From: Variovorax terrae
GTDB lineage: Bacteria; Pseudomonadota; Gammaproteobacteria; Burkholderiales; Burkholderiaceae_C
DNA length: 64,000 nucleotides
Assembly: GCF_022809125.1 (NCBI RefSeq)
Contig: NZ_JALGBI010000001.1
Location: 3,038,001-3,102,000, forward strand
Direction of reading: 5' to 3'
A model generated the notes under the pieces. It saw nothing but the letters and a program-made list of their open reading frames with translations, was not told where the DNA came from and did no database searches. The position numbers and the translations under genes were made by a program. The stretch's first letter is position 1, and every line of letters begins with the position of its first letter. Positions 43,985 through 61,673 of this stretch are shown here, piece after piece.

Positions 43985-44899
43985 TTAGGCCTTGGCGAGC
44001 GTTTCCCACCAGCGTTCGCCAAAGCGCCCCTGCAGGAACGCGATGAAGGCCTGCACCTTGCCCGGCACGAGCTTGGGCGAGGGAAACACGGCGTGGATCT
44101 CCTGCTCGGGCAGGTTGTGGTCCTTCAGCACCTCCAGCACCTGGCCCGAGTCCAGCGAGGCCTGCGCCACATAGCGCGGCAGGGCCGCAATGCCCAGGCC
44201 CTCGCGGGCCGCGGCCAGCACGGCCGACAGGTTGTTCGAGCGCAGCCGGCCCGTCACCGGCACGGTGACCGGTTCGCCCTTGTGCGTGAACAGGCGCCAG
44301 ATGTCGTCGCCCTGAACGCTGCTGTAGATCAGGGCGTTGTGGCCGCTCAACTCGGCCGGCCGCCGCGGCGTGCCCGCCTCGCGCAGATAGCCGGGCGCGG
44401 CCACCAGCACCCAAGGGTTCATGCCGAGAAAGCGCGCGCCCAGCGTGGAGTCGGCCAGCTTGCCCATGCGCACGGCCACGTCGATGCCCTGCGCCACGAG
44501 GTCCACATAGCGGTCCTCGAAGCTCAGGTCCACCTGCACCTGCGGGTGCCGGGCCATGAACTCCAGCGCCAGCGGCACCACCACGCGGCGGCCGAACGCC
44601 ACCGAGGTGCCGATGCGCAGCAGGCCCTGGGCCTGCGACTGGCGCCGCCGCACCACGCTGTCGGCCTCCTCCACTTCGCGCACGATGGACTTGCACTTCT
44701 CGTAGTACAGCGCGCCCGGCTCGGTCAGGCTCACGCCGCGCGTGTTGCGGTTGAGCAGCCGCACCTTCAGGCGCGCCTCGGCTGCGGCCACATGCTTGGT
44801 CACCGTGGGCTGGGTGGTGTTGAACTCGCGCGCCGCCTTGGAAAAGCTGCCGGTCTCCACCACGCGCACGAACATCTCCATCGCCTGCAATCGGTCCAT
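43985..44899 (-). CDS. LysR-family regulator divergent from gcl
   Basis: 304 residues with an N-terminal HTH ([36 protein letters not shown]) and a LysR ligand domain. It is divergent from gcl with 109 bp between, so it probably controls the gcl-hyi-glxR operon in response to a glyoxylate-pathway compound. This differs from E. coli, where the IclR-type AllR does the job. Confidence 0.9.
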
Positions 44900-45008: not shown

Positions 45009-46802
<1,794 letters not shown>

Positions 46803-46813
46803 GAGACACACCC

Positions 46814-47593
46814 ATGCCCCGTTTCGCCGCCAACCTCAGCATGCTCTTCACCGAGGTGCCGTTCATGGACCGCTTTGCCGAAGCCCGCAGCGCCGGCTTC
46901 GAGGCCGTGGAATACCTGTTCCCCTATGCCCACAGCCCGGAGGAGCTGGCCTCGGCGCTGCGCCGCAACAGCCTCAAGCAGGTGCTGCACAACCTGCCGG
47001 CCGGCGACTGGGAGGCCGGCGAGCGCGGCATCGCCTGCCACCCCCACCGCGTGGACGAGTTCCGCGAAGGCGTGGGCCGGGCCATCGCCTATGCCCACGC
47101 GCTCGACTGCCCGCAGCTCAACTGCCTGGCCGGCAAGGTGCCAACGGGCGTGAGCGGCGAGCAGGCGCGCGCCACGCTGGTGGCCAACCTGAGATTCGCC
47201 GCCGCCGAGCTCGGGGCCGCCAGCATCCGCCTGCTGGTGGAGCCCATCAACAGCTACGACATCCCCGGCTTCTTCCTCACGCGCACCGCGCAGGCGCTGG
47301 AGATCCTGGACGAGGTCGGCTCGGACAACCTGTTCCTGCAGTACGACATCTACCACGCCCAGCGCATGGAAGGCGAGCTCGGCAGCACGATTCAGAACCA
47401 CCTGCCGCGCATCGGCCACATCCAGCTCGCGGACAACCCCGGGCGCCACGAGCCCGGCACCGGCGAGATCAACTACGCCTGGCTGCTGCGCCACATCGAC
47501 GCCCTGGGCTACCGGGGCTGGATCGGCTGCGAATACAAACCCGCCGGCAACACCCACCACGGCCTCGGCTGGATGGACCGGCTCACCCACTGA
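46814..47593 (+). CDS. hyi: Hydroxypyruvate isomerase
   Basis: 259-residue TIM-barrel isomerase of the AP-endonuclease-2 fold. It interconverts hydroxypyruvate and tartronate semialdehyde. Motifs are ANLSMLFTEVPFMDRF, LLVEPINSYDIPGFFL, LQYDIYHAQRMEGEL, HIQLADNPGRHEPGTGEINY and IGCEYKPAG, with the metal-binding Glu, Asp, His and Glu in place. It starts 11 bp after gcl, with AGGAGA between. Confidence 0.95.
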   Translation: MPRFAANLSMLFTEVPFMDRFAEARSAGFEAVEYLFPYAHSPEELASALRRNSLKQVLHNLPAGDWEAGERGIACHPHRVDEFREGVGRAIAYAHALDCPQLNCLAGKVPTGVSGEQARATLVANLRFAAAELGAASIRLLVEPINSYDIPGFFLTRTAQALEILDEVGSDNLFLQYDIYHAQRMEGELGSTIQNHLPRIGHIQLADNPGRHEPGTGEINYAWLLRHIDALGYRGWIGCEYKPAGNTHHGLGWMDRLTH

Positions 47594-47610
47594 ACGAAAG
47601 ACGCTTCAAC

Positions 47611-48528
47611 ATGACCAAATCAGGACTCAAGCTCGGCTTCATCGGCCTGGGCATCATGGGCGCACCGATGGCGGCACATCTGCTCAAGGCGGGCCACGTG
47701 CTGTTCGTCCACACCCACGGCAAGGTGCCGCAGGCGCTGGCCGACGGCGGCGCCACGCTCTGCACCACCGCGCAGGGCGTGGCCGAGCGCGCCGACGTGG
47801 TCTTCATCATGGTGCCCGACACGCCCGACGTTCAGGCCGTGCTGTTCGACGAACAGGGCGTGGCCGCCGGCCTCAAGGGCAGCCAGGGCAAGACGGTGGT
47901 GGACATGAGCTCGATCGACCCGATCGCCACCAAGGACTTCGCCGCGCGCATCAACAAGCTCGGCGCCGACTACCTCGACGCGCCCGTGTCCGGCGGCGAG
48001 GTCGGCGCCAAGGCCGCCAGCCTGACCATCATGGTGGGCGGCGAGCCGGCGGTGTTCGAGCGCATCCGGCCGCTGTTCGAGCTGATGGGCAAGAACATCA
48101 CCCTGGTCGGCGGCAACGGCGACGGCCAGACCTGCAAGGTGGCCAACCAGATCATCGTGGCGCTCAACATCGCGGCGGTGGGCGAGGCCCTGGTGTTCGC
48201 CTCCAAGGCCGGTGCCGACCCGGCGCGCATCCGCCAGGCGCTGATGGGCGGCTTCGCGGCCTCGCGCATCCTCGAAGTGCATGGCGAGCGCATGGTCAAG
48301 CGCAGCTTTGAGCCTGGCTTTCGCATCGCCCTGCACCAGAAGGACCTGAACCTCGCCTTGCAGGGCGCGCGCGCCCTCGGTGTGGCACTGCCGCAGACGG
48401 CCGGCGCGGCCCAGCTGATGCAGTCGTGCGCGGCCCTGGGCCACGCCCAGGCCGATCACTCGGCCCTGGTGCGTGCGCTGGAGGCGATGGCGCAGCATCC
48501 CGTCATGCCGGACGCCCCGCGCGCCTGA
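47611..48528 (+). CDS. glxR: Tartronate-semialdehyde reductase
   Basis: 305-residue beta-hydroxyacid dehydrogenase. The Rossmann motif GFIGLGIMGAPMA is at 9-21, the substrate motif DAPVSGGEVGAKAASL follows, and the catalytic Lys lies in GDGQTCKVANQIIVALN. It reduces tartronate semialdehyde to D-glycerate, the substrate of TtuD. Third gene of the gcl operon. Confidence 0.93.
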   Translation: MTKSGLKLGFIGLGIMGAPMAAHLLKAGHVLFVHTHGKVPQALADGGATLCTTAQGVAERADVVFIMVPDTPDVQAVLFDEQGVAAGLKGSQGKTVVDMSSIDPIATKDFAARINKLGADYLDAPVSGGEVGAKAASLTIMVGGEPAVFERIRPLFELMGKNITLVGGNGDGQTCKVANQIIVALNIAAVGEALVFASKAGADPARIRQALMGGFAASRILEVHGERMVKRSFEPGFRIALHQKDLNLALQGARALGVALPQTAGAAQLMQSCAALGHAQADHSALVRALEAMAQHPVMPDAPRA

Positions 48529-48561: not shown

Positions 48562-49578
48562 TTACAAGCTCGGCGCCAGTTCGTGCTGGAAGTTGAAGCT
48601 GTCGGCGTACACATGGGCCAGGCTGGCGTTCTGCGACGCGAACCGGCGCTTGGCATCGACGATCATGCGGGGCGAGCCGCACAGGTAGATGGCGTGCTCC
48701 GACAGATCGGGAAAGTCCTGCGCGATCGCCTCGGTCACGTAGCCGCGCCGGCCGGTCCAGCGCTCGTCGGCGCGGGACAGCACGGGCACGTACTGGAAGT
48801 CGTAGAGGCGCCCGGCCCATTCCTGGATCTGTTCGTGCAGGTAGAGGTCTTCGGCATGGCGCGCGCCCCAGTAGAGCGTGACCGGCGGGCAGTCCGGGTC
48901 ATCCATCAGCGATTCCAGGATGCTCTTGATCGGCGCAAGGCCGGTGCCGGTGGCCACCATGAGCAGGGGCCGGTAGTCCTCCGCGTGGTAGGCGAAGCCC
49001 CCGAGCGGCACCTCCACCTCCAGCGGGTCGCCGCTGCGCATCTGCGCCAGCATGCCTTCGGTGAAACGGCCGCCGGGGATGCGGCGCACATGGAAGTCCA
49101 CCTCCTGCTGCGCCGCCGGCGCCGACGCCATCGAGAAGCTGCGCGGGCTGCCATCGGGCAGCAGGATATTCATGTACTGTCCGGGCCGGTAGACCAGCGC
49201 CTGCGCCGCCTCGATCGCCAGCCCCAGGTGCACCACGTCCGGGCCCAGCGCGCGCACGCTGCGCACCGCCGCGCGATACCGCGACGGCGGCGAGCACAGC
49301 GGCAAGGCGCGCGCGGCGCTGATCGTCAGGTCGCTGCAGGCCCGGGCCTGGCAGGCCAGGGCAAAGCCCTCGTCCGCCTCTTCCGCCGTCAGGCCCATGG
49401 GAAAGTCTTCATAGGCCACGCGGCCCTGCAGCAGCCGGATGCGGCAGGTGCCGCAGCCGCCCGCGCGGCAGTCGTGCGCCAGCGCGACACCGGCCCGCTC
49501 GGCCGCTTCCAGCAGCGGCTCCTGCGCCTGCGCGAAAAATGACTCGCCGGTGTCGGCGACCTGCACGCGGTGGTTCAT
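48562..49578 (-). CDS. [2Fe-2S]-FAD-NAD(P)H oxidoreductase (oxygenase reductase)
   Basis: 338 residues; start at 49578, 10 bp after the GlcG-like gene. The N-terminal plant-type ferredoxin domain has Cys37, Cys42, Cys45 and Cys76 (DCRAGGCGTC, LACQ). Next is an FAD barrel (YRPGQYMNILLPDGSPRSFSMAS) and an NAD-binding domain (LLMVATGTGLAPIKSI, YLCGSPRMI). The order is that of toluene- and phenol-monooxygenase reductases. As last gene of the diiron-oxidase operon it is the likely electron donor to that oxidase. Confidence 0.92.
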   Translation of the reverse strand: MNHRVQVADTGESFFAQAQEPLLEAAERAGVALAHDCRAGGCGTCRIRLLQGRVAYEDFPMGLTAEEADEGFALACQARACSDLTISAARALPLCSPPSRYRAAVRSVRALGPDVVHLGLAIEAAQALVYRPGQYMNILLPDGSPRSFSMASAPAAQQEVDFHVRRIPGGRFTEGMLAQMRSGDPLEVEVPLGGFAYHAEDYRPLLMVATGTGLAPIKSILESLMDDPDCPPVTLYWGARHAEDLYLHEQIQEWAGRLYDFQYVPVLSRADERWTGRRGYVTEAIAQDFPDLSEHAIYLCGSPRMIVDAKRRFASQNASLAHVYADSFNFQHELAPSL

Positions 49579-49588
49579 GGCGCAACCC

Positions 49589-50068
49589 CTATTTCTTGAT
49601 GTCGGCCTCGGCCAGCACCGTGTGCCCCAGCGGCGCGAGCAGCGCGGCCAGCGCGGCCAGCGCGGCCAGGCCGCACTTCGTGTCCTGCTCGCCATTGCCG
49701 CCGGACAGGCCGATGCCGCCAATGACCGCGCCGTCCACCACGATCGGGAAGCCGCCCACGAAGGCCGCGAACCGGCCCTCGAAGCTCAGTTGGATGCCGA
49801 AGGCCTCGTTGCCGGGCAGCGCGGGGCCGTTGGGCGGTGTGGTGAACAAGTGCGTCGAGCGCTTGTGGCCGGCCGCCGTGAAGGCCTTGTTCCAGGCGAT
49901 CTGCGGGCCGGTGATGCGCGCGCCATCCATGCGGTCCATCGCGATCGGGTAGCCGCCGTCGTCGGCGATGCAGATGGTTTCCAGCACGCCGATCTCGCGC
50001 GCCTTGTCCAGGGCGGCGGCGATCATGTGGCGGGCTTCGGCGAGTTCGAGCTTGAGGGCGGTTTTCAT
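49589..50068 (-). CDS. GlcG/HbpS-family protein
   Basis: 159 residues, complete GlcG/HbpS fold: LELAEARHMIAAALDKAREIG, VLETICIADDGGYPIAMDRMDGA, WNKAFTAAGHKRST and GGFPIVVDGAVIGGIGLSGG. Homologues bind haem or small cofactors, or serve unknown roles in catabolic operons. No signal peptide, so cytoplasmic. An alanine/leucine-rich stretch (GLAALAALAALLAPLG) near the C-terminus comes from near-identical codon repeats (gcggccagc). Confidence 0.88.
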   Translation of the reverse strand: MKTALKLELAEARHMIAAALDKAREIGVLETICIADDGGYPIAMDRMDGARITGPQIAWNKAFTAAGHKRSTHLFTTPPNGPALPGNEAFGIQLSFEGRFAAFVGGFPIVVDGAVIGGIGLSGGNGEQDTKCGLAALAALAALLAPLGHTVLAEADIKK

Positions 50069-50101
50069 GGTCTGGGCATCAGGGAATGAAGGACAGGGGG
50101 A

Positions 50102-51589
50102 TCAGCAGCCGCGGTACACGGTCTTGATCTGCGTGTAGAACTCCAGGCCTGCACGCCCGGATTCGCGGAAGGTGGAGGTGCTCGAACGCTTGAGCCCGCC
50201 GAACGGCGCGTTGATGAGGTTGCCGGTGGTGGTGCGGTTGATCTTGACCGTGCCGGCCTGGATGTCGTTGGCGAAGTCGTGCATGTAGCGCGGGTTGCGC
50301 GTCGCGATGGCGGCCGACAGGCCGTACTCGGTGTCGTTGGCCTGGGCCAGCGCGTCGGCGTAGTCCCGCACCTCGATCAGCGCGATCACGGGGCCGAAGA
50401 TTTCCTCGCGCGCAATGCGCATCTGCTGCGTCACGTCGGCGAACACGGCCGGGCTCACGTAGTAGCCGTGCTCGTAGTCCGGGCCCTGCAAGCGCTCGCC
50501 GCCGCACAGCAGGGTGGCCTCGCGCCGGCCGATCTCGATGTAGCCGAGCACGGTGTCGAGCTGCCCGGCGGTGGCCAGCGGCCCCAGGTCCATGCCCGTC
50601 GTCATGCCGCTGCCGATCTTGAGGCCGCGCACCTTCTCGACCAGCCGGCGCGTGAACTCCGCCTTCACGGCCGGCACCACCAGCACGCGGCTGGTGCCGG
50701 TGCAGGCCTGGCCGCTGAGCGAGAAGCCGCCCTTGACCACCAGATCGACGGCGCGGTCGAGGTCGGCGTCCTCCATCACGATCAGCGGGTTCTTGCCGCC
50801 CAGCTCCATCTGGGTGCGCGTGGTCATGGCCACCGCGCGGTGGATCTGCTCGCCCGCGGTGGTGGAGCCGGTGAACGACACCGCACGGATCTGCGGCGAC
50901 TCGGTGATGACGGGTCCGACCTCGGCGGCGCGGCCCGTGATGAAGTTCAGCACGCCCTTGGGCAAGCCCGCCTGCACCAGGGCCTCGGTGAGCCGCAGGC
51001 CGCTCAGCGGCGCGTCGGACGAGGGCTTGAACACCACGGTGTTGCCGGCGATCAGGGCCGGTGCGATCTTGCGCGAGGGGATCGACACCGGGAAGTTCCA
51101 GGGCGAGATCACCGTCACCACGCCCAGCGGCTCGCGCTGACTGTAGACCAGCAGATCGGGGTCGTCATTGGGATAGGTTTCGCCCGAGAAGGTCTGGCCC
51201 TCGGTCGCGTAGAAGCGCAGCGTCTGGGCCGAGCGCAGGAACTCGTCGCGGCTCAAGCTCAGGGGCTTGCCCTCCTCGCGCGTCAGTTCGGCGGCGAAGC
51301 GGTCCGCATGCGCCTCCAGGTAAGCGGCGGCGGCCTCCAGGATGCGGGCGCGCCGGCCGATCGGTGTCCGCTTCCAGCCGTCGAAGGCGGCGGCGGCCGC
51401 GGCCACGGCAGCGTGCGCGTCGTCGGCGGAAGAAGCCTGGAAGCGGCCCACGATGTCGCGGGTGTCGGCGGGGTTGACGTTGTCGAAGGTCCGCCCCGTG
51501 CGGCTGCGGCTCCACTCGCCCTGGATGTGGTTGCAGAATTCCTCGGCGGGCAGGACGTTCATGGGCTGGCTGGCTTGGGTCATCGCCAT
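50102..51589 (-). CDS. NAD(P)+-dependent aldehyde dehydrogenase
   Basis: 495 residues, normal ALDH length. Catalytic Asn in SPWNFPVSIPSRK, Glu in QMELGGKNPLIV and nucleophile Cys in SGQACTGTSRVLV. The FSLSGQACTGTSR segment resembles 2-oxoglutarate-semialdehyde and benzaldehyde dehydrogenases. Start at 51589 (7 bp after the oxidase stop) was chosen; 51583 is an alternative. It probably oxidises the aldehyde released by the diiron oxidase reaction (inference from operon order). Confidence 0.93.
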   Translation of the reverse strand: MAMTQASQPMNVLPAEEFCNHIQGEWSRSRTGRTFDNVNPADTRDIVGRFQASSADDAHAAVAAAAAAFDGWKRTPIGRRARILEAAAAYLEAHADRFAAELTREEGKPLSLSRDEFLRSAQTLRFYATEGQTFSGETYPNDDPDLLVYSQREPLGVVTVISPWNFPVSIPSRKIAPALIAGNTVVFKPSSDAPLSGLRLTEALVQAGLPKGVLNFITGRAAEVGPVITESPQIRAVSFTGSTTAGEQIHRAVAMTTRTQMELGGKNPLIVMEDADLDRAVDLVVKGGFSLSGQACTGTSRVLVVPAVKAEFTRRLVEKVRGLKIGSGMTTGMDLGPLATAGQLDTVLGYIEIGRREATLLCGGERLQGPDYEHGYYVSPAVFADVTQQMRIAREEIFGPVIALIEVRDYADALAQANDTEYGLSAAIATRNPRYMHDFANDIQAGTVKINRTTTGNLINAPFGGLKRSSTSTFRESGRAGLEFYTQIKTVYRGC

Positions 51590-51596
51590 CGCGCGC

Positions 51597-52352
51597 TCAG
51601 GCGGCGGCCAGCAGTTCGAGCGGCTGGCGCATGTCCAGCCGCTCGATCGGCACCTCGCCCGCCACATAGTCGTGGTAGAGCGCCGTGGTGTAGAGCAGGC
51701 GCATCTGCGCGCCCACTTCGCAGATCTTCAGGCAGCGCCGCTGCAGCTCGGGCGTGTTGGCGTGCTCCAGCACGATCTGGTAGCCGCGCTCGCCGTGAAT
51801 CTCGTCCGACACGATGTGCAGGTCGAAGAACTCCACCTCCTCGTCGCTGAACTTGTAGTTGTCGCGCAGCGTGGGGGTCTGCTTGCGGTAGATCGACGGC
51901 ACCTGCGACTCCAGCCCCACCACGAGGCCGGCCACCGCCACGATCGGGTCTTCGCGCATGGCCACGGCATAGCACCAGCTTTGCAGCCCGCGCGTGGTGG
52001 GCGACATGTTGTCGGGGTCGATGACGCGCTCGCGCGTGGTGCCGCAGGCCTCAGCGAAGCGGATCAGCAGGTCGGTATGGCGGTCGCCGCCGATCTCTTC
52101 CTCGTACATGTTGGCCAGCAGGAAGTCCTTGGCCTCGGTGTACTGGTCGGGCATGCGCGCATAGATGCTGGCCAGGTAGTCGGCGAACGGCCCCACGTAG
52201 TGGTAGTGGTTCTCGGCCCAGCGCGCCAGGTGCGCGCGGCTGAGCAGGCCGCTGGACCAGGCCACGCTGAAGGGGGCCTTGTTGGCGCTTTTGCCCTTGA
52301 TGGCATTTTCCAGCGCGGTGCGGAAATCGTCGCGGTTCATCAATGCAGACAT
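51597..52352 (-). CDS. Heme-oxygenase-like diiron oxidase (CADD/PqqC/TenA-fold)
   Basis: 251 residues; ATG at 52352 has GAGGAG upstream. All-helical protein of the iron-containing redox-enzyme family. Six ligand positions match the CADD diiron pattern as I recall it: Glu85-x6-His92 (YEEEIGGDRH), Glu148 (VVGLESQ), His179-x3-Asp183-x2-His186 (DLHIVSDEIH). PqqC and TenA lack this complete set, so an O2-activating oxidase is favoured. Relatives cleave C-C or C-N bonds or oxidise amines (UndA, BesC, SznF, CADD). First gene of an operon with ALDH, GlcG and reductase. Substrate unknown. Confidence 0.87.
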   Translation of the reverse strand: MSALMNRDDFRTALENAIKGKSANKAPFSVAWSSGLLSRAHLARWAENHYHYVGPFADYLASIYARMPDQYTEAKDFLLANMYEEEIGGDRHTDLLIRFAEACGTTRERVIDPDNMSPTTRGLQSWCYAVAMREDPIVAVAGLVVGLESQVPSIYRKQTPTLRDNYKFSDEEVEFFDLHIVSDEIHGERGYQIVLEHANTPELQRRCLKICEVGAQMRLLYTTALYHDYVAGEVPIERLDMRQPLELLAAA

Positions 52353-52420: not shown

Positions 52421-52440
52421 GAATACTGTATACCAAAAAT
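52421..52440. promoter_or_regulatory. Catabolic GntR box 1 (oxidase operon)
   Basis: Core GTATAC at 52428-52433. On the minus strand ATTTTTGGTATACA continues GTATTC. It differs from the ferredoxin-operon box at 59346 by one base in 20. Located about 70 bp before the oxidase start. Confidence 0.8.
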
Positions 52441-52545: not shown

Positions 52546-52589
52546 GGCCGATCCGAAGGGCCATGATCCCAATGCCAGGAGAACTCCCC

Positions 52590-53552
52590 ATGAGTGTTTA
52601 TCGAAAGCTGACCGCCATTGCCGCCCTCTCGCTTCTCGCGGGCGCGGCCATGGCGCAGACCTACCCCTCCAAGCCCGTGCGCGTTGTCGTCCCCACGGTT
52701 CCGGGCCCCCTCGACGTGTTTGCGCGCGCCGTGATGGAAAAAGTCGCCGACCGGCTCAAGCAGCCCTTCATCATCGACAACAAGCCGGGAGCCGGCGGCA
52801 ACGTGGGCGCCGAGATGGTGGCCCGGGCACAGCCCGATGGCTACACCTTGCTGTTCGCGATCGACACCACCTTCACGGTCAATCCCGCGCTCTACAAGAA
52901 GAAGATGCCCTTCGATCCGGAGAAGGATTTCGCGACCATCTCGGTGCCCGTGACCTACGACCAGCTGATGGCCGTCAACCCCGGGGTGAAAGCCAACACG
53001 GTCGCCGAACTCGTCGCCCTCGCCAAGCAGCGCAAGCTGAGCTACGCGACCGGCGGCAACGGCTCGCCCAGCCACCTGACCATGGCGTCGTTCCTCTCGA
53101 CCGCCGGCATCGACATGACCCATATCCCCTACAAGGGCACCGGGCAGTCCGTGATCGACGTGGTGGGCGGCCAGGTGGACTCCATCTTTGCCGTCAGCAC
53201 CGGCGTGCTGCCGCAGGTCAAGGGCGGCAAGCTGCGCGCGCTCGCGGTGTCGGGCACCCAGCGCTCGGCCATGGCTCCCGAGGTGCCGACTGTCAGCGAA
53301 AGCGGCTTCCCGGGCTTCAGCGCCACGTTCGCCTATGCCGTGATGGCCCCCGCGGGCACGCCCAACGAGATCGTGCAGCTGCTCAACCAGGAAATCATCC
53401 GCGCCCTCGCCACGCCCGATCTGCAGGAGAAGAACCGGATGTCCGACTACACGGCGATGGCCATGACGCCCCAGCAGTCCGCCGCCTGGCTGCGCGAGAT
53501 GCGCAAGAAGTGGAGCGACGTGATCACACACACCCACATCACGCTCGATTGA
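52590..53552 (+). CDS. Bug/TctC-family solute-binding protein
   Basis: 320 residues; start at 52590 was chosen for AGGAGAA upstream. Signal peptide YRKLTAIAALSLLAGAAMA-Q. Family motifs are PVRVVVPTVPGPLDVFARA, NKPGAGGNVGAEM, DGYTLLFAID, NPALYKKKMPFDPEKDF and HIPYKGTGQS. First gene of the unit with the carboxylesterase and TauE/SafE permease; it probably captures the ester substrate or its product. Confidence 0.93.
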   Translation: MSVYRKLTAIAALSLLAGAAMAQTYPSKPVRVVVPTVPGPLDVFARAVMEKVADRLKQPFIIDNKPGAGGNVGAEMVARAQPDGYTLLFAIDTTFTVNPALYKKKMPFDPEKDFATISVPVTYDQLMAVNPGVKANTVAELVALAKQRKLSYATGGNGSPSHLTMASFLSTAGIDMTHIPYKGTGQSVIDVVGGQVDSIFAVSTGVLPQVKGGKLRALAVSGTQRSAMAPEVPTVSESGFPGFSATFAYAVMAPAGTPNEIVQLLNQEIIRALATPDLQEKNRMSDYTAMAMTPQQSAAWLREMRKKWSDVITHTHITLD

Positions 53553-53568: not shown

Positions 53569-55101
53569 ATGCCATCTTCCATCGTCGAGACTCCCTGGGG
53601 CCGCCTCCAGGGCAGCAGCAGCCAGGGCGTCACGCGCTTTCTCGGTATTCCCTATGCGGCGGCGCCCACCGGAGCGCTGCGCCTGCGCTCGCCGCGCCCC
53701 CCGGTTCCGTGGCCCGGCCTGCGCGAGGCCCTGCGGCCGGGGCCGGCCAGCCTGCAGACGCTGAAGGGCCATCAGACCTGGCTCAACGACGCCTGCCCGG
53801 ATCAGAGCGAGGACTGCCTGTTCCTGAACGTCTGGACCCCGGACCTCCACGCCAGGCTGCCGGTGCTGGTCTGGGTGCACGGCGGCCAGACACGCAACGG
53901 CCATGGTGCCGGCGCGGCCTTCGACGGGAGCACGCTCGCGCGCGAGCAGCGTCTGGTGGTCGTCACCCTGAACTACCGGCTCGGCGCGCTGGGCGGCCTC
54001 GCCCATCCCGCGCTGCAGGATGAGGCAAGCGGCCACTGCGCCAACTGGGGCCTGCAGGACAAACTCGCGGCGCTCGACTGGGTGCAGCGCAGCATCGCTG
54101 CCTTCGGCGGCGACCCGGGCCAGGTGACATTGGCAGGCCAGTCCTCGGGCGCCGCCAACGCGGCCCTGATCGCGGGCCATGGCCTGGCTGCGGGCAGCTA
54201 CCACCGGCTGGTGCTGCAAAGCCCGCCACTGTTCCGCCCGCCGCTGTTCGTGGAGCTCGACGCCGCGGCGCAGTACACCGAGTTCCTCGCGCGGCAACTG
54301 GACCGTACCGTGCCGCAGCTGCGCGAGATGGACGGCCGCGCGCTGCAGCAGGCGGAGCAGGCGCTCGCGGCGTCGCCGGAGCTGGCCGCCATCATGGGCC
54401 GCCCCCGCACCGCCCCGGTGTGCGACGGCCGCCTGCTGCGGGCCTGGTCTTACGACACGCCGCCCGCCCCCTGCCCGACCCTGTTGGGCTGGACCCGTGA
54501 CGAGGCGGATTTCTGGTTCGACCTGCGCGATGGCGAAGGCCGCGAGATCGCGCCGCTGCAGCCACCGCGCACCGTCGAGGCCTTCGCCGAGCGCGCCGCC
54601 GCGCTGGCGCGCCTGCACCATGCGTTCGATACCGGCCCCGATATCGCCGCACTCACCGCTGCCTACGAGGCTGCCCGCGACCCGGCCCGCGCGTGGTCGG
54701 CGCTGTACACCGATCTCGTGTTCCGAGCCCCCATCGTGCATTTCGCCGCGCGCCAGGCGCGCGCGGGACACGGCACCTATGCCTACGAGTTTGCCCAGCC
54801 GGTGGCGGCTCCGGGCCGCGGCTCGCCGCACGCCAGCGACGTACCCTTCGTCTTCGGCACCACGGGCCATGCGCATTTCGCAGGCAAGCTGGAGGCCTCG
54901 GACGACGTCCGGACCCTCTCGCAGGCCATGCGCGCCGCCTGGGGATCGTTCGCGCGGGACGGTGTTCCGTCCACCCCGTCGCCGTGGCCGGCGTTTGACA
55001 CCCGGCAACCCCGCGCCATGCAGTTCGCGGCCCCCGCGCCGCGGGCCATGCCGCTACACCGGCCTGATCGCCTGGCCCTCTGGGCAGGCTACGCGAGCTG
55101 A
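53569..55101 (+). CDS. Type B carboxylesterase
   Basis: 510 residues of the carboxylesterase/PnbA family with no signal peptide. The oxyanion HGG is at 104-106 and the nucleophile elbow reads GQSSG (Ser192) instead of the usual GESAG. The acid is probably Glu in TRDEADFW, and the His is in GSPHASDVPFVFG. The N-terminal GRLQGSSSQGVTRFLGIPYA and SEDCLFLNVWTP are typical. Hydrolyses an ester or amide feeding the neighbouring pathway; the 16-bp gap to the Bug receptor shows one transcript. Confidence 0.92.
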   Translation: MPSSIVETPWGRLQGSSSQGVTRFLGIPYAAAPTGALRLRSPRPPVPWPGLREALRPGPASLQTLKGHQTWLNDACPDQSEDCLFLNVWTPDLHARLPVLVWVHGGQTRNGHGAGAAFDGSTLAREQRLVVVTLNYRLGALGGLAHPALQDEASGHCANWGLQDKLAALDWVQRSIAAFGGDPGQVTLAGQSSGAANAALIAGHGLAAGSYHRLVLQSPPLFRPPLFVELDAAAQYTEFLARQLDRTVPQLREMDGRALQQAEQALAASPELAAIMGRPRTAPVCDGRLLRAWSYDTPPAPCPTLLGWTRDEADFWFDLRDGEGREIAPLQPPRTVEAFAERAAALARLHHAFDTGPDIAALTAAYEAARDPARAWSALYTDLVFRAPIVHFAARQARAGHGTYAYEFAQPVAAPGRGSPHASDVPFVFGTTGHAHFAGKLEASDDVRTLSQAMRAAWGSFARDGVPSTPSPWPAFDTRQPRAMQFAAPAPRAMPLHRPDRLALWAGYAS

Positions 55102-55103
55102 GC

Positions 55104-55820
55104 ATGGTGCTGTCGACCGACACGCTCTGGTGCGCGCTGGCCGTGATGACAGGCGCCTGCCTGCAGGGTGCCGGCGGCATCGGCTTCGCGCTGTTTGCGG
55201 CGCCGCTGGTGGCGCTGGTGTCTCCCGACCTGGTGCCGGGGCCGATGATCTTCCTGGGCGGCTGTGTCTCGCTGCTGGCCGCGCTGCGCGAGCGCCAGGC
55301 CATCGACTACCGCGCCGCCGCGGCGGCCCTGGCCGGACGGGTGCCGGGCTCCCTGCTGGCCGGCCTGGCCATGGGCCTGCTGCCGCGCTCGGCCTTTGCG
55401 CTGCTCTTCGCGGGGCTGATCCTGGGGGCCGTGGCCCTGAGCCTCTCGGGCTGGCGCATCCGTGCCAGTCCGCTGGTCATGGGTGGCGCGGGCTTCGCCT
55501 CGGGATTCATGGGCACGATCACCTCGGTGGGCACGCCCCCCATGGGGCTGGTGATGCAGAACATGGCGCCTGCCCGCCTGCGCGCCACCATCGGGCTCTT
55601 TCTCGTGGCAGGCTCGGCGGTTTCGCTCGCGGTGCTGTCAGGCATAGGCCGCTTCGGCTGGCCCGAAGTGCAGCGCAGCCTGTTGCTGCTGCCCGCGCTG
55701 GCCCTGGGTTTCTGGCTGTCCAATCCGCTGCGCGAACGCATCGATGCCACGGCATTGCGCCGCCTGGTGCTGGGCGTGTGCGCCCTGTCGGCCCTGGTGC
55801 TGCTGTGGCAGCACCGCTGA
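55104..55820 (+). CDS. TauE/SafE (TSUP)-family permease
   Basis: 238 residues with about seven TM segments. The family's two half-repeats are recognisable (GACLQGAGGIGFALFAAPLV and GGAGFASGFMGTITSVGTPPMGL). TSUP proteins export or import organosulfur compounds, sulfite or small organic acids. It begins 2 bp after the esterase stop. Likely exports or imports an acid from the pathway; the substrate is unknown. Confidence 0.88.
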   Translation: MVLSTDTLWCALAVMTGACLQGAGGIGFALFAAPLVALVSPDLVPGPMIFLGGCVSLLAALRERQAIDYRAAAAALAGRVPGSLLAGLAMGLLPRSAFALLFAGLILGAVALSLSGWRIRASPLVMGGAGFASGFMGTITSVGTPPMGLVMQNMAPARLRATIGLFLVAGSAVSLAVLSGIGRFGWPEVQRSLLLLPALALGFWLSNPLRERIDATALRRLVLGVCALSALVLLWQHR

Positions 55821-55843: not shown

Positions 55844-57322
55844 CTAGTCTCCGCAGGCCATGCCGTCCTTGCGCGGATCGGTGCCGCCGGCCAGGCGCCC
55901 GTCCTCTTCGCGCAGCACCACCTGGGCGCCGCCAAAATCGCTGCGCCCCGCCAGTTCTCCCGCTCCCGCCGCCGGTTCGGCGTAGCCGGCCGCCCGCAAG
56001 GCCTTCGTGAAGTCGTCTGGCATGCCGGCCTCGACGGCCAGGCGGTTGTCCGGCTCCAGCCGCCAGCGCGGCGCATCGATGGCCTGCTGCAGCGGCTGCT
56101 GCCAGGCCGCCAGGCGCAGCAGCAGTTGCAGATGGCCTTGCGGCTGCATCAGCCCGCCCACGACTCCGAATGCGGCATGGAAACGCCCATCGCGCAGCGC
56201 GGCACCGGGCACGACCGTATGGAAAGGGCGCTTCCCGCCTGCGGGGCCGTTGATATGGTCCAGCCCTGCGAAACCGAAACCCCGGTTCTGCAGCACGAAG
56301 CCACAGCCCGGCACCGCAATCCCCGAACCGAAGCGCTTGAAGATGCTGCTCATCAAGGTGACGGCCAGCCCATCGCCATCGACCACGACCGTGCAGACCG
56401 TGTTGCCCGAGGGATCGGCCACGGTTCTCCTGGCGTTGGCCATGGCCTCGGCCATCGCATCGACCAACTGAGCCATCGCCCGGGGCCTGTTCGTGTCCAG
56501 ATCCAGGGACTCGATGGCGCGCAGGGCATCCAGCACCGCCACGCCATGCGTGTTGGGCGGACACTCCAGCACCTGCAAGCCACGGAACGACGCCGACAGC
56601 GGTTCGTCGAAATTGCCACTGTGTGCCGCCAGATCCTCCGTGCTCAGCAGCCCCCCTCGCTCCTGGGAGGCCCGGGCCACCGCGTTCGCCACCGCCCCAT
56701 GGTAGAACGCCTGCCAGCCGCCCTCGGCGATGGCGCGCAGCACGGCCGCCAGTTCAGGGTTGGAAAAACGTTCACCGGCGCGTGGCGTGCGGCCTGCACG
56801 GTACAGCGCGGCGCAGTGCAGATCGGCCCGCAGCACGGGCTCGAACAAAGCCCACTCACGCGCGGCCACCGGCGCGACGGGAAAGCCCTGCTGCGCAGCC
56901 TCGATGGCGGCAGTGAACAGCCGCGGCCAGTCCAGCCGGCCATGGCGCTGATGGAGGTCATGCCAGCCGCGCACCACGCCCGGCGTGGTCACGGAATAGG
57001 CATGGCGCTCGGGGATGCGGGCCCCGGGCAGGCGAGCAACCTGCTCCGGCGACAGCGCGGCGGGCGCCCGGCCCGTGCCGTTGTAGCAATGCGCTGGCCC
57101 TTGCGCCGGCACCAGCATGGCAAGCAGGTCCCCACCGATGCTGGTCGCCATCGGCTCGACCACGCCCAACACGGCATCCGCCCCGATGGCGGCATCGACG
57201 GCGGAGCCGCCTTCGCGCAACAGGTTCAACGCCGCCGCCGCGGCCAGCGGATGGCCGGTCGCCACCATGCAGCGGTGGGCGCGAACAGCTTCGCGAAGAG
57301 AAGGGGATGGGGTCATGGTCAT
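55844..57322 (-). CDS. Gamma-glutamyltransferase-family Ntn hydrolase, short cytoplasmic form
   Basis: 492 residues, shorter than the usual 550-580, and without a signal peptide, whereas typical GGT is periplasmic. N-terminal fold MVATGHPLAAAAALNLLREGGSAVDAAI. The predicted autoprocessing Thr is Thr308 in PSGNTVCTVVVD. Small-subunit motifs are MSSIFKRFGSGIAV...GFVLQNRG, and a glycine-rich GVVGGLMQPQGHLQLL. Could be a gamma-glutamyl hydrolase or acylase (YwrD-like) releasing an amine or amino acid. Its promoter carries a GTATAC box. Confidence 0.87.
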   Translation of the reverse strand: MTMTPSPSLREAVRAHRCMVATGHPLAAAAALNLLREGGSAVDAAIGADAVLGVVEPMATSIGGDLLAMLVPAQGPAHCYNGTGRAPAALSPEQVARLPGARIPERHAYSVTTPGVVRGWHDLHQRHGRLDWPRLFTAAIEAAQQGFPVAPVAAREWALFEPVLRADLHCAALYRAGRTPRAGERFSNPELAAVLRAIAEGGWQAFYHGAVANAVARASQERGGLLSTEDLAAHSGNFDEPLSASFRGLQVLECPPNTHGVAVLDALRAIESLDLDTNRPRAMAQLVDAMAEAMANARRTVADPSGNTVCTVVVDGDGLAVTLMSSIFKRFGSGIAVPGCGFVLQNRGFGFAGLDHINGPAGGKRPFHTVVPGAALRDGRFHAAFGVVGGLMQPQGHLQLLLRLAAWQQPLQQAIDAPRWRLEPDNRLAVEAGMPDDFTKALRAAGYAEPAAGAGELAGRSDFGGAQVVLREEDGRLAGGTDPRKDGMACGD

Positions 57323-57366: not shown

Positions 57367-57383
57367 TTTAGTATACTATATTC
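57367..57383. promoter_or_regulatory. Catabolic GntR box 4 (gamma-glutamyltransferase gene)
   Basis: TTTAGTATACTATATTC, core GTATAC at 57371-57376, about 45 bp before the GGT-like start on the minus strand. The ATATTC end matches box 6. Confidence 0.72.
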
Positions 57384-57542
57384 AATAATCTCGATAAAAC
57401 ATGAGAAAGACGCCCGCGACCCGACATCCTGCTCCTGCAAGGGCGAGAGTCGCCATGGCCTCGGGCAGCAGTGGTGCCGCCTCAGCAGCGTTGACGGGTA
57501 GCCCCCTCCTTCTCTTGCGAACCGTACGGCCGCGGGTGACTA

Positions 57543-57560
57543 CAATAGGTATACATTCAA
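57543..57560. promoter_or_regulatory. Catabolic GntR box 5 (gntR promoter)
   Basis: CAATAGGTATACATTCAA, core GTATAC at 57549-57554, 34 bp before the GntR start, consistent with autoregulation. The rest of the 265-bp gap 57323-57587 holds only boxes 4 and 5 as far as I can see. Confidence 0.72.
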
Positions 57561-57587: not shown

Positions 57588-58280
57588 ATGCCTGCCTCCA
57601 GTCTGCCCGTTGCGACGACATCCCCGGTGAAGCTCGGGGAGCAGCATCGGCCGCTCTCCGCCATCATCAGCGACACCCTGCGCGAGCGCATCCTGAGCGG
57701 CGAGTTTCCGACCGGCCACCGCCTGGTCGAAGGCCATCTGTCGGAGGAAATGGGAGTCTCCCGCATCCCCATTCGCGAAGCCCTGCGCCTCCTGGCGGCC
57801 GAGGGCCTGCTCACCATCGAGCCGCGGCGCGGCGCTTCGGTGGCGCTGCTGTCGGACCAGATGGCGCATGACATGGTCGAAGTGCGGGCCACGCTCGAAG
57901 GGCTGAACGCCAAGCTGGCAGCCCAGCGACGCGACGACAAGACGGTCGCCCGGCTGCAGGACGTCCTGGACCAGGGCAAAACGGCTGTCAACGATGGGCA
58001 CACCGAACGCTTCGTCGAGCTGAATGCACAGTTTCACGAACTGCTGGCCACCATCGCCAACAATGGTGTCCTCACCGAACTGATGCGTTCGCTGCGCGAA
58101 CGCACCGGCCTGCTGTTCGCCCCCAGCAACATGCAGCGCGCGCGGCAGAACTGGGAGGAGCACGCCCAGATCCTGCAGGCCGTGATTGCCGGCAACGGGG
58201 AACTGGCCTCGCTGCTGGCCATGCAGCACGTGCACAACGCCGCCCAGGCCTACGCTGCAAGCCGCCCGCCGGCCCCCTGA
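57588..58280 (+). CDS. GntR/FCD-family regulator of the 48-60 kb catabolic system
   Basis: 230 residues. Winged HTH (RLVEGHLSEEMGVSRIPIREALRLLAAEG, about 44-72) with an FCD ligand domain (VEVRATLEGLNAKLAAQR, LNAQFHELLATIANN, NWEEHAQILQAVIAGN giving candidate metal His residues). GTATAC-centred boxes lie at its own promoter and at four other promoters nearby. The operator differs in flanks from that of the urate-island GntR, though both share GTATAC. Confidence 0.92.
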   Translation: MPASSLPVATTSPVKLGEQHRPLSAIISDTLRERILSGEFPTGHRLVEGHLSEEMGVSRIPIREALRLLAAEGLLTIEPRRGASVALLSDQMAHDMVEVRATLEGLNAKLAAQRRDDKTVARLQDVLDQGKTAVNDGHTERFVELNAQFHELLATIANNGVLTELMRSLRERTGLLFAPSNMQRARQNWEEHAQILQAVIAGNGELASLLAMQHVHNAAQAYAASRPPAP

Positions 58281-58394: not shown

Positions 58395-59318
58395 ATGCTG
58401 CACATGAATGATGAGATGGTGGAACGCCATGTCACGCCGGCCGATGCGCTGGCCGTGATGCGCGATGCCTACCTGAGCTTCGGCCAGGGCCACGCCGCCA
58501 TGCAGGAGCGTATCCGCACCGAGTCGGGCGGCGTCAAGCTCTCGACACTGGGAGCCGTCCTGCCCGACCAGCAGGTCGCCGGCGCGAAGGTCTACACCAC
58601 CATCCAGGGCCGGTTCTCGTTCGTCATCCTGATCTTTTCCACGGTGGACGGCCGGCCCCTGGCCTCGTTCGATGCCGGCGCCATCACCCGGCTGCGCACC
58701 GCCGCCTGCTCGACCCTGGCCGCGCAGCACCTGGCCCGCAGCGATGCGCGCGTGCTCGCCCTGTATGGCGCAGGCACGCAGGGCAGCGCCCATGCCCGGC
58801 AGTTCGCGGAGCATTTCGCGCTGCAGCACATCCTGCTGTGCGATCCCTATGCGCCCGATGACGCGGCGGAGCGGCTGTCCCGAAGCTGCGGCGTTCCGGT
58901 CAGCCTGGCCGCGCCGGAAGAAGCCGTGGCGCAAGCCGATCTTGTCATCACGGCCTCGCGCTCGCCGGAGCCCCTGTTTTCAGGCCAGCGGCTGCGGCCG
59001 GGCGCATTCGTGGCGGCCATTGGCTCCAGCCTGCCACACACCCGCGAACTCGATGATTCGGCGCTGGAGCGCTGCGCGGCGCTGGTGGTCGAGTGGCGAA
59101 CGCAATCCATGCGCGAGGCCGGCGACATCGTGATGGCCGCCCCAGGCATCCTGCCCGACCGCAAAATCGTGGAACTGGCCCAGGTGGTCACAGGCGAGGC
59201 GCAGCCGCGCCGAAACAACAATGACATCCTGATCTACAAATCGGTCGGCGTGGGCCTCGAAGATGTGGCCCTGGCCGGCTTTGCCTACAGCCGCATCATG
59301 GATGGCAAACACGCCTAG
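58395..59318 (+). CDS. Ornithine cyclodeaminase/mu-crystallin family protein
   Basis: 307 residues. NAD(P)-binding motif LALYGAGTQGSAHARQF, substrate region KLSTLGAVLPDQQVAGAKVYTT and DAGAITRLRTAACSTLAAQHL, and the typical C-terminal IYKSVGVGLEDVALA. Family members include ornithine cyclodeaminase, alanine dehydrogenase and ketimine reductases. With a gamma-glutamyltransferase and an oxidase nearby, a cyclic imine or amino-acid intermediate is plausible. AAGGA lies 11 bp upstream; the gene follows gntR by 114 bp. Confidence 0.9.
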   Translation: MLHMNDEMVERHVTPADALAVMRDAYLSFGQGHAAMQERIRTESGGVKLSTLGAVLPDQQVAGAKVYTTIQGRFSFVILIFSTVDGRPLASFDAGAITRLRTAACSTLAAQHLARSDARVLALYGAGTQGSAHARQFAEHFALQHILLCDPYAPDDAAERLSRSCGVPVSLAAPEEAVAQADLVITASRSPEPLFSGQRLRPGAFVAAIGSSLPHTRELDDSALERCAALVVEWRTQSMREAGDIVMAAPGILPDRKIVELAQVVTGEAQPRRNNNDILIYKSVGVGLEDVALAGFAYSRIMDGKHA

Positions 59319-59345: not shown

Positions 59346-59365
59346 TTTTTGGTATACAATATTCC
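59346..59365. promoter_or_regulatory. Catabolic GntR box 6 (ferredoxin operon)
   Basis: ATTTTTGGTATACA continues ATATTC; core GTATAC at 59352-59357. Nineteen of 20 bases match box 1 (minus strand at 52421), although the units are 7 kb apart. Centre about 40 bp before the ferredoxin ATG. Confidence 0.82.
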
Positions 59366-59395: not shown

Positions 59396-59731
59396 ATGCC
59401 CAAAGTCGTATTCCACAAGAGCGGACACACCTACGAAGACGAGGTCAAGGAAAACACCAACCTGGTGGTGCGGGCCGGTGTCCGCCAGTTCCCTTATCCC
59501 AACCTCGTCTATGGCTGCGGCATGGGCAAATGCGCCAAGTGCGCCTGCCGCATCGACCGCGGCGCCGAGCATCTGCCCGCGCCCAACTGGAAGGAAAAGA
59601 AGCAATTGGGCGAGCGCCTCGAGCGCGGCTATCGCCTCGTCTGCCAGCTGTGGATCCACCACGATCTGGAATTGACGCAGGAAGAAGCCGCCACCGACGG
59701 CGGCGCCGGCGCCTTGCCGGCCTGCGCCTGA
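59396..59731 (+). CDS. [2Fe-2S] ferredoxin, first of the pair
   Basis: 111 residues. Cluster ligands Cys41, Cys46, Cys49 (CGMGKCAKC) and Cys83 (RLVCQLW), plus an extra Cys51. Plant-type fold with a long loop of charged residues (PAPNWKEKKQLGERLERGYR). The loop and the GYRxxCQxxIH motif are shared with the second ferredoxin at 60073. Likely delivers electrons to an oxygenase, possibly the diiron oxidase that carries an almost identical promoter box. No strong RBS seen. Confidence 0.92.
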   Translation: MPKVVFHKSGHTYEDEVKENTNLVVRAGVRQFPYPNLVYGCGMGKCAKCACRIDRGAEHLPAPNWKEKKQLGERLERGYRLVCQLWIHHDLELTQEEAATDGGAGALPACA

Positions 59732-59743: not shown

Positions 59744-60043
59744 ATGTCCACGTATGTGATCCTCACCAGCCGGCCCGGCCAGTTCAGGACCGAGGCCGTT
59801 GACGGCCTGCAGCCGCTGGAGACCTACGAATACCGGTTCTGCGGCCGGGCCCGGGCCCGGTTCGTGATTGCCGAACTGCTCACCGCCGTGAAGGTGCGCA
59901 TCGTCGATGAAACATTTCCTCCGGTGGTCAACCATGTGCCGTCCAAGTTTCTGGAGAAATTCAGCACCCTTGACCACGCCCGCGGCCAGCTCATGCATCT
60001 GGCGGCCTGCGGCGGCGGCGATGCCGAACTGGTCAGACAGTGA
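59744..60043 (+). CDS. Small protein between two ferredoxins, unknown family
   Basis: 99 residues, RBS GAGGAG. N-terminal beta-rich half (STYVILTSRPGQFRTEA, LETYEYRFCGRARARFVIAEL) and a helical C-terminal half. No signal peptide, no TM segment, and the two Cys (33 and 89) are not in a cluster motif. I do not recognise it. Its place inside a tight ferredoxin-x-ferredoxin transcript suggests a small subunit or effector of an oxygenase complex (inference). Confidence 0.8.
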   Translation: MSTYVILTSRPGQFRTEAVDGLQPLETYEYRFCGRARARFVIAELLTAVKVRIVDETFPPVVNHVPSKFLEKFSTLDHARGQLMHLAACGGGDAELVRQ

Positions 60044-60072: not shown

Positions 60073-60405
60073 ATGATTGAAGTAATTTTCATTACCAACC
60101 AGGCCAAAGCCGTCAAGGCGCCGGAGAACAGCAATCTGCTGCGCGTGTCGCTGCGTGAACAGGGCGGCATCCCCTTCAAGTGCGGAGGGGGCCTGTGCGG
60201 CACCTGTCGCTGCAAGATCGAGCAGGGGCTCGAGAACACGGATGGCATCAAGGACAAGGAACGAAAGCATCTGTCCGAAGCCGACATCCGGGACGGCTAC
60301 CGCATGGCCTGCCAGACGTTCATCCACGGCAACGTCAGTGTGTCCTGGGAGCCGCGCAAGCCGGCCCCCGTCTCCCCCAGCCTCAGGCCAGCCACCCTCT
60401 CCTGA
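60073..60405 (+). CDS. [2Fe-2S] ferredoxin, second of the pair
   Basis: 110 residues. Ligands Cys37, Cys42, Cys45 (KCGGGLCGTC) and Cys80 (RMACQTF). Same layout as the first ferredoxin (CxxGxCxxCxC, KExKxL, GYRxxCQ) but clearly diverged, so it is an old duplication or separate recruitment. The C-terminus has a proline-rich tail. A GTG start at 60040 overlapping the previous stop is an alternative. Confidence 0.92.
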   Translation: MIEVIFITNQAKAVKAPENSNLLRVSLREQGGIPFKCGGGLCGTCRCKIEQGLENTDGIKDKERKHLSEADIRDGYRMACQTFIHGNVSVSWEPRKPAPVSPSLRPATLS

Positions 60406-60605
60406 CTCCCCACGGCTCGCAGCGCCCGCGATGGGGGCGCTTGGGCCCAGCCCTGGTTGAATGCACCTGATCGGGGTATTTCCGGGGTTAACACGCACCT
60501 TGATATGCGCGAATGAAGCCAGAATGAAGCATGCAAATGGTGCATCAGAACAAGCAACAGGCACCGATTTTGCTTTCCGCTGATTCTCAAAGTTCAGGAG
60601 CCTTC

Positions 60606-61637
60606 ATGCAAAAACGCGTTTTCCTCCAAATCACGGCCGCCCTTGCCGCAGCGGGCGCCTTCGCCAGCGCCCAGGCCCAGACCACGCCCATCAAATTCCA
60701 GCTCGACTGGCGCTTCGAAGGCCCCGCCGCCCTGTTCCTGCTGCCCGCCGCCAAGGGCTACTTCAAGGACGCCAAGCTCGATGTGACCGTCGATGCAGGC
60801 AACGGCTCCGGCGGCGCAGTGCAGCGCGTGGCATCGGGGGCCTACCAGATCGGTTTTGCCGACCTCGCCGCGCTGATGGAGTTCCACGCCAACAATCCCG
60901 ATGCGCCGAACAAGCCGGTGGCCGTGATGATGGTCTACAACAATACGCCGGCGTCGGTGATGGCGCTCAAGAAATCCGGCATCAAGAGCCCGGCCGACCT
61001 GAACGGCAAGAAGCTCGGCGCCCCGGTGTTCGATGCCGGACGCCGCGCCTTCCCGATCTTCGCCAAGGCCAACAACGTGAGCAGCGTGCAATGGACCTCC
61101 ATGGACCCGCCGCTGCGCGAAACCATGCTGATGCGCGGCGACGTGGACGCCATCACCGGCTTCACGTTCACCTCCCTGCTCAATCTCGAGGCGCGCGGCG
61201 CCAAGGCCGACGAGGTGGTGATCCTGCCTTACGCCGACTACGGCGTGAAGCTCTACGGCAACGTCATCATTGCCTCGCCCCAGATCATCAAGGACAACCC
61301 GGGCGCGGTGAAGGCCTTCCTGCAGGCCTTCGCCAAGGGCGCCAAGGAAGTCATGGCCAAGCCCGAAGCCGCGATCGAGTACGTGAAGCAGCGTGACGGC
61401 ATCATCAACGTGGCGCTCGAAACGCGCCGCCTGAAGCTGGCCATCGACACCGTGATCAACAGCCCCGACGCGCGAGCCGAAGGCTTCGGCCAGGCCAATC
61501 CCGGGCGCATGTCGCTGATGGCCTCCCAGGTGTCGGACGCATTCGCCACCAAGACGCGCGTGAATCCCGAGGCGGTCTGGAACGGCTCGTTCCTGCCGTC
61601 CCAGGCCGAGCTGAACGTGCTGCCCGCGAAGAAGTGA
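60606..61637 (+). CDS. NMT1/SsuA-type ABC solute-binding protein
   Basis: 343 residues; AGGAG lies 5 bp before 60606. Signal peptide QKRVFLQITAALAAAGAFASAQAQ. Family pattern KFQLDWRFEGPAALFLLPAAKGYFKDA and VTVDAGNGSGGAVQRVASGAYQIGFADLAAL, as in thiamine-pyrimidine, taurine and nitrate receptors. Followed by ATPase and permease genes: a complete importer. The nucleoside-type deaminase at the end of the operon hints at a nitrogen heterocycle as substrate. Confidence 0.93.
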   Translation: MQKRVFLQITAALAAAGAFASAQAQTTPIKFQLDWRFEGPAALFLLPAAKGYFKDAKLDVTVDAGNGSGGAVQRVASGAYQIGFADLAALMEFHANNPDAPNKPVAVMMVYNNTPASVMALKKSGIKSPADLNGKKLGAPVFDAGRRAFPIFAKANNVSSVQWTSMDPPLRETMLMRGDVDAITGFTFTSLLNLEARGAKADEVVILPYADYGVKLYGNVIIASPQIIKDNPGAVKAFLQAFAKGAKEVMAKPEAAIEYVKQRDGIINVALETRRLKLAIDTVINSPDARAEGFGQANPGRMSLMASQVSDAFATKTRVNPEAVWNGSFLPSQAELNVLPAKK

Positions 61638-61647
61638 TGCCTTGAAC

Positions 61648-61673
61648 CGCGAAAGGGCAGCCGCCCTTTCGCG
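61648..61673 (+). terminator. Perfect 11-bp hairpin between receptor and ATPase genes
   Basis: CGCGAAAGGGC-AGCC-GCCCTTTCGCG, 11-bp stem, 4-base loop, no T-tract. Placed right after the receptor stop, it may protect the receptor mRNA 3' end or partly terminate, raising receptor levels over ATPase and permease. Confidence 0.7.

Follow-up and report, generated by a model that had tools for sequence, protein, structure and literature searches.

With which partners, and in what kind of pathway, does the heme-oxygenase-like diiron oxidase (HDO) encoded by Variovorax terrae work? The question is raised by a stretch of 64,000 nucleotides (contig NZ_JALGBI010000001.1, positions 3,038,001 to 3,102,000; hereafter the window), in which the HDO gene leads an operon together with genes for an aldehyde dehydrogenase (ALDH), an HbpS-like protein and a reductase. 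On balance, the enzyme is probably the O2-dependent diiron component of a multicomponent system, driven by ferredoxins, fed by amides or carboxylates, and placed in a catabolic pathway under the control of a GntR protein. The four-gene operon is only half of this system. The other half includes a triplet of small genes, easily overlooked when only the four genes are read, because in the window it lies 7 kb off and on the opposite strand.

The oxidase and its operon

The operon extends on the minus strand from 52352 to 48562, and includes in this order the genes for HDO (51597-52352, 251 aa), ALDH (50102-51589, 495 aa), the HbpS/GlcG-like protein (PF03928; 49589-50068, 159 aa; hereafter HbpS) and Red, a BenC/MmoC-like reductase with Fer2, FAD and NAD domains (48562-49578, 338 aa). 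Spacers measure 7, 33 and 10 bp, and the family assignments of the four proteins are all above Pfam cut-offs, in agreement with the operon described in the original prediction. The nearest NCBIfam models of ALDH are those of alpha-ketoglutaric semialdehyde dehydrogenase types, and the score against NF042993 (548.9 bits) is under the cut-off of 770. The nearest model of Red is BenC, at 207.4 bits for a cut-off of 430. Because both fall below their models, names cannot reveal the substrate of ALDH or the oxygenase served by Red. Five relatives of HbpS were found in the PDB, a NahX structure among them. Sensing of formaldehyde, as by EfgA (6bws), was considered for HbpS and dropped, since EfgA ranks fourth of the five (54.9 bits) and three other relatives outscore it.

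The predicted model of HDO (pLDDT 92.3) shows the heme-oxygenase-like seven-helix fold that is expected of the superfamily, and CtCADD stands at the top of the fold comparison. Residues E85, H92, E148, H179, D183 and H186 align with the ligands of CtCADD and are invariant in 38/38 aligned relatives; E84 and E86 are also invariant. In the SznF-like subgroup of HDOs (3H/4C) a glutamate of the auxiliary helix acts as a seventh ligand. The alignment thus supports a predicted CADD-type diiron site with three histidines and three carboxylates, the six-ligand arrangement that had been read from the sequence. The distinction from PqqC drawn at the same time holds as well: none of the six positions is kept in the aligned Methylobacterium PqqC, and HDO scores 54.2 bits against the PqqC model TIGR02111, for a cut-off of 240.

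Since CtCADD is the best match by fold, HDO might be a 4-aminobenzoate synthase of the CADD type. The residues that CtCADD sacrifices, Tyr27 and Lys152, are replaced in the HDO alignment by Ser29, invariant in all 38 aligned relatives, and Gln158; NePabS retains Tyr and Lys at these positions. The score of HDO against the 4-aminobenzoate synthase model TIGR04305 (94.7 bits) is moreover far below the cut-off of 200. As judged from these alignments a self-sacrificing synthase is refuted, and the probability left to it is negligible.

HDO is rare per genome and yet taxonomically wide. It was detected in 5 of 398 sampled genomes of the phylum (E 1e-20; one of them at 44% identity) and in 9 of 349 genomes of the order, the own genome being included in both counts. 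A protein search retrieved 1377 relatives, the best 120 of which are 82-92% identical, and a genome scan found 493 places encoding HDO. Carriers include Cupriavidus, Bradyrhizobium, Variovorax, Achromobacter, Bordetella, Paraburkholderia, Azospirillum, Aminobacter and Kaistia, among others. Second copies occur at loci L024, L082, L083 and L152. The two HDOs are identical in C. basilensis and Kaistia and 90% identical in Aminobacter anthyllidis, one copy being near the ferredoxins and the other near HbpS and Red. A further copy adjoins HbpS in Aminobacter sp. HY435. The copy at L103 (G693:C37) contains a single in-frame TGA within its aligned part, and is either a pseudogene or an assembly error.

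Genes associated with the oxidase

Partner genes were counted in 82 loci, which are the best 80 of the 493 HDO matches, the window and one Caballeronia plasmid; plasmid loci L089-L092 and loci added later stand outside the count. Nineteen proteins served as tblastn queries, with identity cut-offs between 35 and 60%. The tblastn counts were used in place of a clustering of open reading frames of at least 100 aa, which undercounted c10 and the ferredoxins. Sixty-five of the loci, the window included, are full-length, i.e. at least 19 kb long.

All 65 encode, in addition to HDO, the members of the triplet, which in the window are the [2Fe-2S] ferredoxin Fd3 (59396-59731, plus strand, in a frame open from 59336), the 99-aa protein c10 (59744-60043, plus strand) and a second [2Fe-2S] ferredoxin, Fd6 (60073-60405, plus strand). 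HbpS was found in 64 loci and a GntR gene in 61, followed by a close ALDH (56), a permease (54) and Red (42). Less frequent are a protein of the ornithine cyclodeaminase (OCD) family (34), a TauE-type exporter (33), an amidase and a transporter of the major facilitator superfamily (MFS), found in 20 loci each, a gamma-glutamyltransferase-like (GGT) hydrolase (5) and an esterase (3); an NMT1-type transporter and gcl/hyi/glxR-like genes were each found in one. The picture is similar when loci are grouped under 30 taxon labels to discount over-sampled genera: Fd3 and c10 are found under 30 labels, Fd6 under 29, HbpS under 28, GntR under 25, ALDH under 19, permease under 18, Red under 14, OCD under 11 and TauE under 10. 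The PLSDB annotation of two Caballeronia plasmids gives the same gene set.

The constant partners of HDO are therefore the Fd3-c10-Fd6 triplet, HbpS and GntR, not Red and ALDH. Fd3, c10 and Fd6 follow one another in this order, on a single strand, in all the 79 loci that hold the three. The order of the other genes is highly variable, and 32 gene strings were recorded, some of which are distinct merely through short contigs. As a description of the system the four-gene operon is thus incomplete: its genes are linked to HDO elsewhere, HbpS almost without exception, the reductase and the dehydrogenase less regularly.

For c10, 343 relatives were found at E 0.001. No precomputed Pfam domain was found among the 120 relatives listed, nor in the L077 homologue. 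The structure is predicted with confidence (pLDDT 93.0, pTM 0.83), and a fold search of the model gave no close PDB match. In the order, c10 is found in 8 of 349 genomes, the own genome included. All eight are among the nine HDO-positive genomes, and none among the 340 others (Fisher p 1.8e-15, related genomes not being independent). The ninth genome, G558, has an HDO 78% identical to that of the window, accompanied by HbpS, Fd3 and Fd6.

A predicted shared operator

The sequence TTTTTGGTATACAGTATTC is found upstream of HDO (52421-52439, minus strand), where additional GTATAC cores are located at 52510 and 52536, and a copy with one mismatch lies upstream of Fd3 and the triplet (59346-59364, plus strand). 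As the pattern was derived from the HDO site, the Fd3 copy is the finding; the number of copies expected in shuffled windows is 0.00. In the whole genome (4.93 Mb) the 16-mer core matches, with up to two mismatches, only the HDO and Fd3 sites, and the reversed-pattern control gave 0. Two more GTATAC sites (57371 and 57549, within 57371-57554) separate the GGT-like gene from the GntR gene, and overall 6 of the 9 GTATAC sites in the window fall in three intergenic regions of the HDO gene set.

In the relative loci, window excluded, GTATAC was searched in the 250 bp upstream of each gene, the background over all loci being 0.060 per 250 bp. Sites precede HDO in 79/81 cases, the permease in 64/66, the amidase in 20/21 and TauE in 28/37. 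They are less frequent upstream of GntR (33/74), ALDH (19/69), OCD (7/37) and HbpS (2/78), and none was found upstream of Red (0/49), c10 (0/79) or Fd6 (0/78). Fd3 has a site of its own in only 14 of 80 relatives, because it is often located behind HDO in one operon. Permease counts are not independent of HDO counts where the two genes diverge and have the intergenic region in common.

A search with GTATACWRTATWC in 44 carrier genomes (12 + 32) gave 93 distinct positions, compared to 3 for the reversed control; five genomes had no match. By coordinates 78 positions are inside the HDO locus and 15 outside, those of G748:C3 and G749:C4, close to antiporter genes on other contigs, being counted as outside. 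Three of the 15 mark further copies of the set, namely HDO-HbpS in Aminobacter, amidase in C. basilensis and permease-GntR in Bordetella genomosp. 1. In C. basilensis the amidase is thus separated from the HDO locus, on another contig, and has the operator site all the same. In Variovorax L047 a site is found about 96 bp upstream of the gene for an NMT1-type binding protein; no GTATAC was found past the triplet in L087 and L088.

The obvious candidate for binding the predicted operator is the GntR/FCD protein of the set (57588-58280, plus strand). NanR, likewise of the FCD type, has GGTATA repeats as its binding sites.

Some observations made on the way concern other sites. In Aminobacter (L139, L121) operator-like sequences lie between catalase-peroxidase-like and LysR-type genes, and a short distance ahead of a dapB-like gene, as named by sequence reading. 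At 34883, 36205 and 41240 of the window lie three palindromes, two of them nearly identical (AAAAGTGTATACACTTTTT) and the third weaker, which apparently are the operator of another regulator. In Bradyrhizobium (L123, L153, L154, L158, L159, L162, L184-L191) the sequence TTGGTATAC(T/C)ATAT(T/C)CCAG, resembling the HDO operator, is found beside oxalate/formate antiporter genes, and may reflect cross-regulation or another FCD regulator.

Six of the 15 outside positions fall between two such antiporter genes, in six Bradyrhizobium genomes; the antiporter family cut-off was passed in the one genome tested. In 8/8 further Bradyrhizobium genomes, similar sites (1-2 mismatches in 19 bases) lie beside the best antiporter match. 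These sites would fit a chemistry directed at C2 compounds, in which HDO releases glyoxylate or a fragment at the oxalate level, and so would the gcl/hyi/glxR-like genes for conversion of glyoxylate to glycerate (45018-48528, plus strand, named from families and order), which converge on the Red gene in the window and are preceded by a LysR-family gene (43985-44899, minus strand). The antiporter site may, however, belong to a different FCD regulator, and the glyoxylate genes, linked in the window only (1/82 loci), were dropped as a part of the system. Oxalyl-CoA decarboxylase is found in 4/9 HDO genomes versus 58/340 others, a weak association (p 0.057), and was not found in the genome of V. 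terrae. C2-directed chemistry is held to be unlikely, and is retained as a minor alternative.

Proposed pathway

In the reading favoured here, electrons from NAD(P)H would pass through Red, where present, to the two dedicated ferredoxins, and from these to the CADD-like diiron centre, which would react with O2. HbpS and c10 would be accessory proteins, c10 possibly with a regulatory or coupling role. A small carboxylate is the probable substrate. It would enter through the permease, the Bug or the ABC system, or else be set free inside the cell from amides, by hydrolases that differ between lineages. Its oxidation would in most lineages give an aldehyde, then handled by ALDH. HDO may fragment its substrate to this aldehyde, as originally proposed; a close ALDH in 56 of the 65 loci fits an aldehyde product and does not prove it. 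The presence of an OCD family member points to an intermediate that is an amino acid or an imine. Cleavage of a C-C or C-N bond, desaturation and hydroxylation by HDO cannot be told apart from sequence. Because the predicted operator is shared, the pathway can be put to the test, its inducer being in all likelihood the substrate itself or a product near to it.

Several observations weigh against this reading. The sample of relative loci is heavy in Cupriavidus and Bradyrhizobium. A close ALDH is missing in 9 of the 65 full-length loci, three of which (L080, L082, L083) hold an ALDH 45-47% identical, and Red is missing in 23. In the 20 kb searched in G558, no c10, GntR, close ALDH or full-length Red was found. 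In a sister clade (L099, L100; HDO 44% identical) only HDO, HbpS and GntR are present in 30 kb, without ferredoxins or c10, and therefore neither of these is required by every member of the HDO family. As to the operator, the overlap of permease and HDO upstream regions lowers the value of the permease counts, and six of the 15 outside positions have no gene assignment in the carrier genomes. Judging from the gene content of G558 and the sister clade, the HDO-HbpS association looks the oldest, the ferredoxins having been added later and c10 being confined to the main clade; a wider family may have descended from an ancestral HDO-HbpS-GntR unit.

XylT-type ferredoxins reactivate catechol dioxygenases, and NahX, whose structure is among the relatives of HbpS, belongs to naphthalene catabolism. 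By analogy, ferredoxins, HbpS and c10 might assemble, repair or reactivate a labile iron centre, HDO requiring only a generic reductant. The loci devoid of Red and the sister clade, which retains HDO-HbpS without ferredoxins, are in favour of such a role. Two ferredoxins and a full reductase look instead like the electron chain of an oxygenase, of which they are the classical components. HDO clusters are labile according to PMC13108848; on the other side, the second oxidation by MboA needs a FAD/[2Fe-2S] partner that chemical mediators do not substitute, as stated in PMC13185094. A repair function is unlikely, though the likeliest of the alternatives.

A role in biosynthesis, signalling or protection, with HDO making or detoxifying a metabolite rather than feeding carbon to the cell, would be in line with the mostly biosynthetic nature of characterised HDOs and with the TauE-type exporter linked in 33/65 loci. 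DtpC of Acinetobacter, a predicted HDO tied to oxidative stress tolerance, has a role outside biosynthesis according to PMC13232832. Against this, no synthetase, ligase or carrier protein was found among the recurring neighbour clusters identified, which are part of all clusters, whereas the amidase, further hydrolases and importers do recur, and the amidase is joined to the set by its operator site. Such a role is thus rather unlikely, and the setting looks catabolic, as originally proposed, operator sites being found also before permease and amidase genes.

Neighbouring genes

The HDO gene is divergent from that of a TctC/Bug-type binding protein (52563-53552, plus strand), followed by genes for a carboxylesterase-family protein (53569-55101, plus), a TauE/SafE-family exporter (55104-55820, plus) and a gamma-glutamyltransferase-family (Ntn) hydrolase (55844-57322, minus). 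Between GntR and the triplet is the gene for an OCD/mu-crystallin family protein (58395-59318, plus), of the imine reductase or amino-acid dehydrogenase type. It is a close relative, probably an orthologue, of 3hdj (394.9 bits), a structure named only 'probable ornithine cyclodeaminase'. Genes for an NMT1-type ABC transporter (binding protein, ATPase and permease) and a cytidine-deaminase-fold protein (60531-63837, plus) start 125 bp after the triplet, in the same orientation; the binding protein of the window is found in 1 of the 82 loci. Further right in the genome (L087, 7856-14852) are Bug-like, MmgE/PrpD-like, RraA-like and Rieske-like genes, several named by sequence reading only, along with a further NMT1-like binding protein and one more deaminase-like protein.

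Importers vary by lineage, and include the unnamed permease, NMT1-type ABC, MFS and Bug systems. The permease had no Pfam match (L040 copy), no NCBIfam match (L040 and L142 copies) and no meaningful PDB match. Hydrolases vary similarly: the amidase is found in Cupriavidus, Paraburkholderia and Azospirillum, an isochorismatase-fold cluster (Pfam search on the Pseudolabrys copy) in Variovorax, Pseudolabrys and Candidimonas, and GGT-like and esterase genes are among the hydrolases too. Such differences between lineages would be expected for a core compound that is reached from several conjugates.

Comparison with known systems

About a dozen HDOs have been characterised, mostly biosynthetic, according to the 2026 review PMC13108848, in agreement with what the original prediction said of the class. 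The same review states that a protein effector is not needed by any HDO examined to date. For an HDO with a FAD/[2Fe-2S] reductase of its own there is one precedent, MboA/MboB, described in PMC13185094 as maybe the first characterised dedicated HDO-redox pair; the enzyme of PMC13061610 is ferritin-like, and from the portion available not a close precedent. In the open-access literature, to which the search was confined, no paper describing this gene set was found, and a homarine-type operon, considered as a lead, had no match there.

The mangotoxin acetylenase MboA/MboB is like the set of the window in associating a 3-His/3-carboxylate HDO to a dedicated flavin/[2Fe-2S] NAD(P)H reductase, the linked FAD/NAD/[2Fe-2S] enzyme being in the window Red (49578-48562). 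It differs in being biosynthetic and acting on a peptide, and the available text of PMC13185094 makes no mention of a separate ferredoxin gene, a c10-like protein, HbpS or ALDH; the likeness is drawn from the description of the two proteins. CtCADD and NePabS differ by the sacrificed Tyr and Lys, which HDO lacks, and by the set of redox partners and catabolic-type neighbours, which HDO has; PqqC differs by its ligand positions. For UndA and BesC, HDOs that cleave C-C bonds, no partner proteins are named in the text available of PMC13108848. The system of the window may be the first multicomponent HDO, served by a reductase and two ferredoxins of its own and by a new family of small regulatory subunits (c10), catabolic and spread across Burkholderiales and Rhizobiales, although the chances of this being so in full are put at somewhat less than even.

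A widespread and strongly conserved HDO, provided with an electron chain, c10, importers and amidase, would bring catabolism within the range of the superfamily. The scheme of a diiron oxygenase plus ferredoxin and reductase, with or without a small effector (for which c10 is a candidate), is common to bacterial multicomponent monooxygenases such as soluble methane monooxygenase and toluene 4-monooxygenase. These are ferritin-fold enzymes, whereas HDO has the heme-oxygenase and not the ferritin-like fold, and a multicomponent HDO, if true, would be their convergent counterpart. The system of the window therefore extends a known enzyme class by a new architecture and a new setting.

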